This document shows, one piece after another, positions 19,428 through 35,478 of a stretch of DNA of 64,000 bases. Source of the stretch: Arthrobacter saudimassiliensis (GTDB taxonomy: Bacteria > Actinomycetota > Actinomycetes > Actinomycetales > Micrococcaceae); assembly GCA_900016675.1 (NCBI GenBank), contig LN483070.1, positions 1,736,001 through 1,800,000 of the forward strand. Reading direction: 5' to 3'. Below the pieces are notes generated by a model, which saw only the letters and a list, made by a program, of their open reading frames with translations, was not told the DNA's origin and did not search any database. The position numbers and the translations under genes were made by a program. The first letter of the stretch is position 1. Every line of letters starts with the position of its first letter.

Positions 19428-19443
19428 TCGAAGATGTGTTCTA
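19428..19443 (+). promoter_or_regulatory. LexA-box-like sequence upstream of a small gene
   Basis: TCGAAGATGTGTTCTA differs at two positions from TCGAAC-N4-GTTCGA and ends 10 bp before ATG 19454. It sits in an otherwise featureless 242-bp gap (19212-19453). The position is right for SOS control, but two mismatches make it only a candidate. Confidence 0.4.
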
Positions 19444-32714: not shown

Positions 32715-33689
32715 ATGACAGCCGCCGGCCAAAGTTCAAGGCGTCCGGTTGCCGACGTCGTGCTCCGGCCCGTCGGTCCGGTGATGCCCTCATCCACCCT
32801 GTCCGTAACCGTCTCACTTCGGACGGGCGACGCAGTGCCCGTGACCGTCGCGGACATCGAGGTGCAGCTGCTGCGCACCGTGCGCTACGGCTACCGCCGG
32901 GGAAATTTGTACGGGGCGGTGCAGGGCGCGTGGGAGCAGGAGACCACCGAGATGGACCGGTCCCTGCTCCCGGGTCCGCTCCTCGTATCCCCGGGTGAGG
33001 AAAGCCGCCTCGAGACTTCCGTGACCCTCCCGGCCGACGCCGCAGGAAGCGCCGAGGGAACCCTCATCCAGGTGCGGTGGTCCGTTCGCACCCGCCTGCA
33101 CTGCCCGGGCCTGCCCGACGTCACCACGGATACCGCGCTCCCTGTCCGCCCGGCCTCCGGCCACTGCGCTGCCGATGCTGCTGCACCGGCCCGCAGCGAC
33201 GGCCGCGACGACGCGGCCCTGACCTTCACCCGATTGTCCGGCCGCACAGTGGTCCCTGGCAGCGATCTGAGCGGAACCCTGCGAATCGTCGCCCTGCGGC
33301 CCTTGAGCGTACGGGAGTATCGGGTGGAGTTGCTGCTGCGGGAGCATGTGGACCACGGTCCGGGCCACCTCGCCGACGCCCCCGACCGCAGCCCCGGCTT
33401 GGACGACAGGTCGGCCGAAACCGTCGTCGGCACCTTCACGCGCCCTGGAGGGGCCCTGGCCTCCCGAGAAGAGCTGGACCTGCCCTTCAGCCTTCGCGTT
33501 CCCGAGGTCCTGCCTGCCCCGTCCCTGAGGTTCGCGCAGCTCCGGCTGGTCTGGGAGCTCAGAGCTGTCCTCGACCTGCCTCTGCGGTCGGATCCGGCAA
33601 TTATGCTGCCGGTCTACGTCCCAACGGCTGACGGGCCCTCGCCGGGACAGGACTCCTCGTGCGGGCCCTCGCTGGGCCCGGGTGCCTGA
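32715..33689 (+). CDS. Possible arrestin-fold (Spo0M-like) protein
   Basis: The 324-residue soluble protein looks like two beta-sandwich repeats, roughly residues 15-145 and 165-305. Each begins with a Pro-rich strand and ends with a 'LPF-SLRVP' type turn (DLPFSLRVPEVLPAPSLRFA) and a strand such as LRLVWELRAVLDLPL. VVPGSDLSGTLRIVALRPLSVREYRVELLL has the arrestin/Spo0M pattern. The linker is Ala/Asp-rich. The family assignment is by pattern only; role unknown. It lies upstream of umuDC with 72 bp between, but umuDC has its own LexA box. Confidence 0.55.
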   Translation: MTAAGQSSRRPVADVVLRPVGPVMPSSTLSVTVSLRTGDAVPVTVADIEVQLLRTVRYGYRRGNLYGAVQGAWEQETTEMDRSLLPGPLLVSPGEESRLETSVTLPADAAGSAEGTLIQVRWSVRTRLHCPGLPDVTTDTALPVRPASGHCAADAAAPARSDGRDDAALTFTRLSGRTVVPGSDLSGTLRIVALRPLSVREYRVELLLREHVDHGPGHLADAPDRSPGLDDRSAETVVGTFTRPGGALASREELDLPFSLRVPEVLPAPSLRFAQLRLVWELRAVLDLPLRSDPAIMLPVYVPTADGPSPGQDSSCGPSLGPGA

Positions 33690-33716: not shown

Positions 33717-33732
33717 TCGAACATGCATTCGA
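33717..33732 (+). promoter_or_regulatory. LexA (SOS) box upstream of umuDC
   Basis: TCGAACATGCATTCGA matches TCGAAC-N4-GTTCGA with one mismatch in the right half. It lies 29 bp before the umuD GTG start and 27 bp after the arrestin-like gene's stop. SOS control of umuDC is expected. Confidence 0.75.
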
Positions 33733-33761: not shown

Positions 33762-34181
33762 GTGGCGGTGTTCTCAGCGGACCGATCCCGGCGCGTGGCC
33801 GGGCCGGCGGAGGCCGACGCCGCCACGGCGGCCGGGTTTCCCAGCCCCGCCCGCGACTACTTCGACGGCCGGATCGACCTCAACCGGCACCTGATCAGCG
33901 ACCCCACCTCCACCTATGTGGTCCGCGTCGACGGCGACTCCATGGCCGACGCCGGCATCAGCAGCGGTGATGAGCTGATCGTGGACCGTTCCCGCACCCC
34001 ACACGACGGCGCCGTCGTCGTCGCCGTGGTCGACGGCGAGCTGCTGGTGCGCCGGCTGCTGCTGCGCGGAGACGCGGTGATCCTGCAGGCCGAAAGCCGC
34101 GGCACCCCAGACGTTGAACTGCCCGACGCCGCCGAGCTGACCGTCTGGGGCGTCGTGACCCGGTGCCTGCACCATGTCTGA
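33762..34181 (+). CDS. umuD: UmuD-like S24 peptidase-family protein with a Lys-to-Arg change in the dyad
   Basis: The 139-residue protein has the same length and residue numbering as E. coli UmuD: cleavage site Ala24-Gly25 ([12 protein letters not shown]; Cys-Gly in E. coli), Ser60 in GDSM, and position 97 in [10 protein letters not shown]. The general-base Lys97 is Arg97, with Arg98 after it. UmuD is cleaved to UmuD' under RecA filament help and joins UmuC to form polymerase V. GTG 33762 with a GGGGAAGGGG site is chosen since it gives exactly this length. It overlaps umuC by 8 bp. Self-cleavage may be weak or altered. Confidence 0.88.
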
Positions 34182-35478
34182 GGCACGGTCCGAGACGCGC
34201 GCCGAACGGATCGCCCTGGTTGACGTCAACAGCTTCTACGTCTCCTGCGAGCGCGCTTTCGATCCGAAGCTGGCCGGGATTCCCGTCGTCGTGCTCTCCA
34301 ACAATGACGGCTGCGTGGTCGCCCGCTCCGATGAGGCGAAGGCGCTGGGCATCAAGACCGGCACGCCCTGGTTCCAGCTGGCGGCCGGGGCCGCCCGGGC
34401 CGGGCTGGTGCAGCGCTCCAGCAACTACGAGCTGTACGGGGATATGAGCTCACGGGTGATGCAGCTGCTGGGCCGGTACGCGCTGTGGCAGGAGGTGTAC
34501 TCGATTGACGAATCCTTCCTCGGCCTCGCCGGGACCCCCGTTGAACTGGCGGCGCAGGGTGCGGAGATCCGCTCCGCCGTCGCCCGGCACACCGGCCTAC
34601 CGGTCTGCGTGGGCATCGGCCCCACCAAGACGCTGGCCAAGTTCGCCAACCGGATCGCCAAGCAGAACCGGCACCTGGGCGGCGTCTGCAACCTCGAGAC
34701 CATGGAGCCGGCGGTGGTGGAGACCATCATGTCCCGGGTGCCGGTGACCGGACTGTGGGGCGTGGGCTCCCGGCTGGGGGCCAAACTGGCCGCCATGGGC
34801 ATCGAGACCGTCGCCGACCTGAAGGCGGCGGACCCGGCCCTGATCCGCCGGAAGTTCTCCGTGATCCTGCAGCGCACGGTCCTGGAGCTGAACGGCACCC
34901 CGTGCATTCCGACGGAGGACGAGCGGGCGGACCGCAAGCAGCTGATCTTCTCCCGCTCCTTCGCCGCCCCGGTCACCACCGCCGCCGAGATGCGGCAGGT
35001 CATGAGCATCTACGCGCAGCAGGCCGCGGCCCGGCTGGAGCGCGAAGGTCAACTGGCCGGGGTGATCACCGCCTATGCCGGGACCTCACGGTTCAGCGAG
35101 CGGGCGGCGTCGTTCCCGTCGGTAACGGTGCGGCTGCCGGCGCCGACGGCGGATCCGGTGGTGCTCAGCCGGGCCGCGATCAGTGCGCTGGAGGGGCAGG
35201 TGGTGGAAGGCGTCGCCTACACCAAAGCCGGCGTGATGCTCACGGATCTGTCGCCGGCCGGAGCCCAGCCGCTGCTGGACGTGTTCGTGCCGGAGCAGGA
35301 ACACCGGCACCTCGGCGAGCTGCTGGGCAAGGTCACCGACAAGTACGGGGCGGCGAGCATCGGGCTGGGCCTCGGCGGCATATCAGCGTCCAAACCGGAA
35401 TGGACCATGGCCCGGCGCTACTCCTCGCCGCGCTACACCACGGAGTGGGCGGAGCTGCCGGTGGTCAAGGCGCGGTAG
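34174..35478 (+). CDS. umuC: Y-family DNA polymerase UmuC
   Basis: The 434-residue protein has the Y-family catalytic motifs [15 protein letters not shown] (palm Asp), SIDESFLGL (Asp-Glu pair) and the fingers [18 protein letters not shown]. The helix-hairpin-helix is at [14 protein letters not shown] and the C-terminal little-finger domain follows, with a UmuC-type tail. It performs error-prone translesion synthesis as polymerase V with UmuD'. It overlaps umuD, and a LexA box precedes the pair. Confidence 0.93.

Follow-up and report, generated by a model that had tools for sequence, protein, structure and literature searches.

In Escherichia coli, the UmuD protein uses Ser60 and Lys97 to cut the bond after its residue 24, and this self-cleavage is the classical control step that restrains SOS mutagenesis after translation. 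For E. coli UmuD S60A, greatly reduced UV mutagenesis was reported (PMC3901139). We here analyse a umuD gene whose product carries an arginine at position 97, encoded in a 64,000-nucleotide stretch of the Arthrobacter saudimassiliensis genome (GenBank assembly GCA_900016675.1, contig LN483070.1, positions 1,736,001 to 1,800,000; in the following called the window). Like E. coli UmuD/UmuD' of DNA polymerase V (pol V), the window protein shows the same fold, a length of 139 residues and the GFPSP and IDLN motifs, and its gene adjoins umuC and is preceded by a LexA box. Unlike the E. coli protein, the Arg97 subfamily to which it belongs lacks Lys97, and members have also lost Ser60, the residues at P1 and P3 of the cleavage site and the hydrophobic arm in front of it; cleavage is predicted to be absent.

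HumD of phage P1, a UmuD'-like protein that is short from birth, is said to act without cleavage. The window UmuD differs from HumD by keeping the full arm, and its match to the HumD family model NF051876 lies below the family cut-off (75.8 vs 120 bits). Two laboratory variants of E. coli UmuD resemble the Arg97 proteins in that the arm is undocked and the protein uncleaved, i.e. the truncated UmuD-18 and UmuD-3A (T14A L17A F18A), a full-length, non-cleavable protein that is considered a UmuD' mimic (PMC5342242). Those variants are engineered and have an intact active site, whereas the Arg97 change is natural, occurs in several genera and includes the catalytic dyad. SipA of Streptococcus pyogenes, a pseudo-peptidase of the S26 fold, is likewise an S24/S26 member that has lost its Ser-Lys dyad and has a non-proteolytic role; in contrast to UmuD, it is a cell-surface pilus assembly protein, and its dyad is replaced by Asp and Gly (PMC4049620). 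Finally, the Lys97 UmuDs found on chromosomes and plasmids of the same bacterial family belong to the same protein family, many adjoin umuC and most have an SOS box, but they keep Ser60, Ala or Cys at P1, Val or Ile at P3 and, on average, the hydrophobic arm. In the open-licence literature, searched by titles and abstract beginnings, we recognised no account of a UmuD that is full-length and non-cleavable by nature, and our literature search found nothing on a Lys97Arg exchange in UmuD.

The best reading of our data is that the window encodes such a natural non-cleavable UmuD, which would act in its full-length form as a UmuD' mimic and give rise to a pol V without proteolytic switch. Hereby, we consider it rather likely that the Arg97 UmuDs form a subfamily that has lost RecA-stimulated self-cleavage and whose full-length dimer acts as accessory subunit of pol V. 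Support comes from the loss of the dyad, the changes in arm and cleavage site, the purifying selection on the gene and its linkage to umuC and a LexA box.

Arginine at position 97 of the window UmuD and its relatives

The window protein exceeds the cut-offs of both NCBIfam NF007621 ('pol V autoproteolytic subunit'; 144.4 vs 110 bits) and Pfam S24 (PF00717; 84.8 vs 23.3 bits). Its phmmer alignment to E. coli UmuD' (1umu) runs ungapped from residue 25 past residue 97, which bears out the initial annotation, where a 139-residue protein in the register of E. coli UmuD had been described. In this alignment Ser60 pairs with Ser60 and Arg97-Arg98 with Lys97-Lys98, again as annotated; the Ser-Lys dyad of UmuD and the S24 peptidases is thus incomplete in the window copy, with Ser60 present and Lys97 replaced. 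A wrong alignment register at residue 97 was ruled out by the alignments of the window UmuD and of its relatives. The best matches of the predicted protein body in the PDB are the UmuD' structures 1ay9 and 1umu (TM-score by target 0.81-0.85). The statement that the cleavage site is kept holds for the P1-P1' pair Ala24-Gly25 but not for its surroundings, since P3 is Thr22, at a position that is almost always Val or Ile in Lys97 proteins, and the hydrophobic arm is absent.

A first set of relatives, consisting of the window locus and 80 of 119 relatives, contained 13 Arg97 loci among 81, namely the window and twelve loci titled as Arthrobacter species (including A. citreus, A. luteolus, A. koreensis, A. 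gandavensis and A. yangruifuii). The remaining 68 carry Lys97 and are titled Pseudarthrobacter, Paenarthrobacter or other Arthrobacter. At the level of the family, UmuD matches were obtained in 149 of 245 genomes (E 1e-20), and 30 automatically taken plus 80 chosen loci were read among the matches listed. From the 222 loci collected altogether, L002 (a LexA) was dropped, and no row could be used for L003 (a weak match) and L198 (whose match contains a stop). The pooled loci, which are a sample of the matches and not a census, comprise 80 with Arg97 and 139 with Lys97. Hereby, 41 of the Arg97 loci stem from the genus of the window (12 of them from a second collection that largely repeats the same species) and 39 from ten further genus codes within the family (g4, g8, g10, g11, g18, g21, g23, g24, g25 and g32). 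All 29 searched genomes of the window's genus possess the gene and carry Arg97 in its main copy. Otherwise UmuD is rare in a sample of the phylum, where 10 of 396 genomes gave a match at E 1e-27, including two from the window's family. On present sampling, the Arg97 subfamily appears confined to this family, which by its named members is the Micrococcaceae.

Codon 97 is CGN in 80/80 Arg97 loci and AAR in 139/139 Lys97 loci, so the arginine cannot result from a single base-calling error. Together with the occurrence of Arg97 in all 29 genus genomes this rules out a sequencing error. The initial annotation had named, as an outcome that would speak against it, an arginine that is common in the clade and compatible with cleavage; the first half applies, Arg97 being universal in the genus sample, whereas the data given below make cleavage competence unlikely.

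A second umuD copy on another contig is present in 2 of the 29 genus genomes, and the one that was read (L112) has Lys97. Furthermore, a Lys97 umuD next to a gene for a Y-family polymerase is found on large plasmids titled Arthrobacter sp. zg-Y1110 and A. caoxuetaonis (L463, L469). Plasmid locus L463 reads like L112; hence one cell can harbour both the dead and the live type of UmuD. In the window genome we found no second UmuD, the other matches at E<=1 being LexA and a 30-residue match with E 0.24. Trans-cleavage by a second, Lys97-bearing UmuD was rejected as an explanation, since none was seen in the window genome and an extra copy occurs in just those two genus genomes.

Mosaic loss of the self-cleavage determinants

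Residue 60 is serine in 139/139 Lys97 loci. Among the 80 Arg97 loci it is Ser in 59, Ala in 16 and Gly in 5, i.e. the nucleophile is lost in 21; in the genus of the window, 8 of 29 genomes have Ala60. At P1, 137 of the 139 Lys97 loci have Ala or Cys (an odd Asn is explained by L192, a Lys97 locus that is apparently shifted or truncated at its start), whereas the Arg97 loci show Ala (25), Ser (25), Met (9), Thr (7), Arg (7), His (6) and Ile (1). P3 is Val or Ile in 138/139 Lys97 loci compared to 0/80 Arg97 loci, and the mean number of hydrophobic residues in the last twelve arm positions (P12-P1) drops from 4.5 in 39 Lys97 representatives to 1.6 in 36 Arg97 representatives; P values for the arm comparison are uncorrected for kinship. 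Gly25, in contrast to these positions, is invariant in 22 aligned Arg97-type rows. Such constancy despite the predicted loss of cleavage is expected if Gly25 serves UmuC binding, and a published model places the conserved UmuD' N-terminus near the UmuC active site (PMC11791011, PMC12926913).

Those data bear on the possibility that Arg97 acts as a weak general base, with self-cleavage proceeding slowly or at high pH where Ser60 is kept. In favour of such a residual activity, Ser60 is retained in the majority of Arg97 loci, and since the window copy keeps both Ser60 and Ala24-Gly25, its slow Arg-assisted cleavage is possible. However, the 21 loci that lack Ser60 have Arg97 as well, so catalysis by serine cannot be what conserves it in them; moreover, P3 Val/Ile is lost throughout and the arm is less hydrophobic even where Ser60 is kept. 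An arginine side chain is, in general, a poor base (pKa above 12). On the side of a weak-base role, arginine at Lys156 of LexA has reportedly been the subject of old work, which our literature search did not retrieve. The available excerpt of PMC10020695 contains nothing on an arginine at this position. All in all, we regard catalysis by Arg97 as quite unlikely in the lineages that keep Ser60. Between the alternatives left by the initial annotation, slow or Arg-dependent cleavage on the one hand and function of the uncleaved protein on the other, the comparison favours the latter for the subfamily as a whole.

The dyad is kept in the proteins read as controls. LexA was found in 59 of 61 genomes of the same family, and the 30 loci read all possess the Ser, the Lys and the Ala-Gly site. 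UmuD relatives from 160 viral-contig loci and 12 plasmid loci, corresponding to 99 distinct aligned stretches, have Ser and Lys in 172/172 cases; hereby, the viral loci are the best 80 of each scan, with 2 of 6 peptide patterns in one scan spanning the dyad region and thus favouring dyad-bearing relatives, and the plasmid loci are 12 read among 40 matches listed, while at least 5000 records match. In addition, an order search yielded eight UmuD loci of another family (f4, perhaps Bifidobacteriaceae) that keep Ser60 and Lys97.

Phylogeny and selection

A UmuD tree was built from 80 rows (36 Arg97, 43 Lys97 and E. coli) with columns 60 and 97 omitted; it rests on few columns and has many unresolved forks, and 4 of the 43 Lys97 rows, those of f4, are without arm data. 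On this tree residue 60 needs at least 8 changes, and the rows that have lost Ser60 are all of the Arg97 type (12/36 vs 0/44). Arg97 rows account for 38% of the summed tree length, and the chance that all 8 changes fall into the Arg97 part at equal rates amounts to roughly 4.5e-4, or 7e-4 without E. coli, a rough estimate from one tree.

Among 19 Arg97 pairs compared, dN/dS is 0.03-0.27 in 18 and saturated in the remaining one; the six pairs with Ala60 or Gly60 range from 0.03 to 0.06. These ratios show purifying selection on the Arg97 UmuDs, and the low values of the Ala60 and Gly60 pairs indicate that the dyad-less proteins are maintained rather than decaying. An adjacent umuC with the DDE active site is present in 72/80 Arg97 loci (4 of the 72 are partly covered), and in locus L201 umuC lies nearly 4 kb away from the Arg97 umuD. 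A LexA box with up to 2 mismatches precedes codon 25 by 50-200 bases in 41/41 Arg97 loci of the genus, and a box of this quality was found in 29/39 Arg97 loci outside it.

Proposed action of uncleaved UmuD

The conserved, cutting-deficient helper of an error-prone polymerase thus probably works uncut. By the comparison presented here, the Arg97 proteins would not be cleaved in the cell, and the uncleaved form would be active in translesion synthesis (TLS). With the LexA box and the gene order observed, LexA derepression would result in the joint production of UmuD and UmuC. The arm, lacking the hydrophobic segment and the P3 Val, would no longer dock in the old active site and would be permanently free, so that the body would behave like UmuD'. 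Because the segments needed for docking are lost, the full-length dimer could serve directly as accessory subunit of pol V. SOS control would then be exerted by transcription via LexA, and presumably also through activation of the polymerase by RecA, with no delay of the kind that proteolysis imposes in E. coli. At the positions exchanged in UmuD-3A the window protein has G14, E17 and A18, and its arm contains no hydrophobic stretch; we therefore infer that the Arg97 UmuDs are natural counterparts of UmuD-3A, i.e. full-length, with a free arm and competent for UmuC.

Several observations weigh against this interpretation. UmuD(K97A) of E. coli retains UmuC at the membrane and is a strong inhibitor of pol V mutagenesis (PMC4552617), and non-cleavable UmuD-18 gave just low mutagenesis (PMC5342242). 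The effects of K97A and UmuD-18 imply that an uncleaved UmuD needs an altered arm to function in TLS. Moreover, the window copy retains Ser60 and Ala24-Gly25, and its near relatives retain Ser60, so the case for a loss of cleavage by the window protein itself depends on Arg97, P3 and the arm. The losses are also mosaic, as P1 Ala persists in the subclade of the genus that has Ala60 (L103 and relatives), and AlphaFold2 monomers of a Lys97 UmuD and of the window UmuD do not distinguish the two types, the arm being mostly at pLDDT <50 in both. With regard to its origin, Arg97 requires at least 2 changes on the UmuD tree (1-3 in bootstraps), and a single change is found in just 25% of the bootstrap trees. 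A UmuC tree (quick method, 47 rows) places three Lys97 partners among Arg97 ones and shows 4 changes of Arg97, at least 2 of them forced by starred branches. Since Arg97 partners thus occur in several places of the UmuC tree, more than one origin of Arg97, or an exchange of umuD, is possible. Finally, no umuC was found within ~4.3-4.8 kb downstream in five Arg97 loci (L202, L203, L211, L215, L217), and two have a umuC fragment (L197) or an interrupted copy (L188 / L297). In the latter, a Gly60-Arg97 locus, the umuC match extends only to around residue 110, with unrelated open frames behind it, which gives the impression of an interrupted gene. The missing or broken umuC in these seven loci suggests that some Arg97 lineages may be decaying.

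A further alternative is that the Arg97 umuD is a relic decaying after its function was lost, or that the Lys-to-Arg exchange is no more than a compositional shift at high GC. The seven loci just described, and the absence of any lysine from the window UmuD, would fit this explanation. It is nevertheless very unlikely in view of the low dN/dS and the presence of the gene in all 29 genus genomes, of the catalytic Lys kept by every LexA read from the same family and of the UmuC partners of Arg97 loci, which are not correspondingly lysine-poor (K/(K+R) 0.29 vs 0.32). General GC pressure was rejected on the LexA and UmuC data.

UmuD' might also be made by another route, either by an unrelated protease trimming the exposed arm or from an internal translation start. 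A free polar arm would be a likely substrate for trimming, and in 9/80 Arg97 loci an ATG lies exactly at codon 24, directly before Gly25. Such codons are found in L199, L202, L205, L208, L209, L212, L214 and L216, where a UmuD'-sized product could start. In 68/80 Arg97 loci, however, there is no ATG, GTG or TTG within codons 18-28, and no clear Shine-Dalgarno sequence precedes the Met24 codons in 8 representatives. For the window, which is among the 68, an internal start yielding UmuD' was rejected on this ground. We consider this route unlikely and prefer the direct action of full-length UmuD.

Lysine content of Arg97 UmuDs

The window copy contains no lysine at all, and the protein body is free of lysine in 24/36 Arg97 representatives compared to 0/39 Lys97 representatives. 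This contrast holds in bins of similar third-position GC and has no comparable counterpart in the UmuC partners; the scarcity of lysine in Arg97 UmuDs does not appear to be explained by GC. Genes for Pup, for two proteins of the Pup-ligase type and for two proteasome subunits are present in the window genome, and lysine deserts have been reported as a common feature of bacteria that possess pupylation (PMC10665810). A link between the loss of lysine and UmuD stability is speculation. In its widest form, the interpretation would be that a pol V without switch evolved in the Micrococcaceae, perhaps repeatedly, with UmuD as permanent UmuD' mimic, that a new role of the dead pocket keeps Arg97, and that the nearly lysine-free UmuD could evade the Pup-proteasome system, prolonging the life of pol V after damage. 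We regard this full combination as rather doubtful.

The umuD-umuC locus of the window

The features of the locus are compiled in Table 1. As described in the initial annotation, the umuC partner is intact and a LexA box is present. The open reading frame of umuC overlaps the end of umuD with its start and keeps the D and DE active-site residues. The claim that the unit looks active is supported by this box, the open umuC and the purifying selection on umuD. In the window, 9 LexA-box sites with up to 2 mismatches were counted, compared to a mean of 1.42 in shuffled sequences; they include a perfect TCGAACNNNNGTTCGA match at 1746-1761 and, at 19428-19443, a box with 2 mismatches. The LexA box of umuD contains an in-frame ATG (33723). 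GTG 33762 is likely the true start of umuD, because the genus relatives have a start codon, mostly ATG, at the same place. The gene upstream of umuD (32715-33689) resembles Spo0M/arrestin-like proteins (Pfam Spo0M, 33.3 bits, cut-off 23).

Table 1. Features of the umuD-umuC locus, in window coordinates.
Feature	Position	Strand	Evidence
LexA (SOS) box TCGAACATGCATTCGA, 1 mismatch to TCGAACNNNNGTTCGA	33717..33732	+	box scan
umuD, Arg97 type, 139 aa, GTG start	33762..34181	+	translation, NCBIfam, Pfam, phmmer to E. coli UmuD'
Remnant cleavage site T22-A23-A24/G25 (cut position at the slash); P1-P1' kept, P3 = Thr	33825..33836	+	
Ser60 codon TCC, former nucleophile, retained in window copy	33939..33941	+	
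Arg97 codon CGC, replacing the catalytic Lys	34050..34052	+	
umuC, Y-family polymerase, 434 aa; D17 and D112-E113 kept, DUF4113 C-terminal tail present	34174..35478	+	

Implications

The gene is thus an ordinary one with an unusual product, seemingly a variant of a known SOS subunit without its defining reaction. Automatic annotation as 'autoproteolytic subunit' is probably incorrect for the Arg97 UmuDs. If our interpretation is correct, the post-translational gate on SOS mutagenesis has been lost naturally across several genera while the gene stayed under selection, which would mean that this gate is dispensable, and the Arg97 proteins would make it possible to test directly which purpose cleavage serves, i.e. 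timing, the release of UmuC from the membrane or a checkpoint role.
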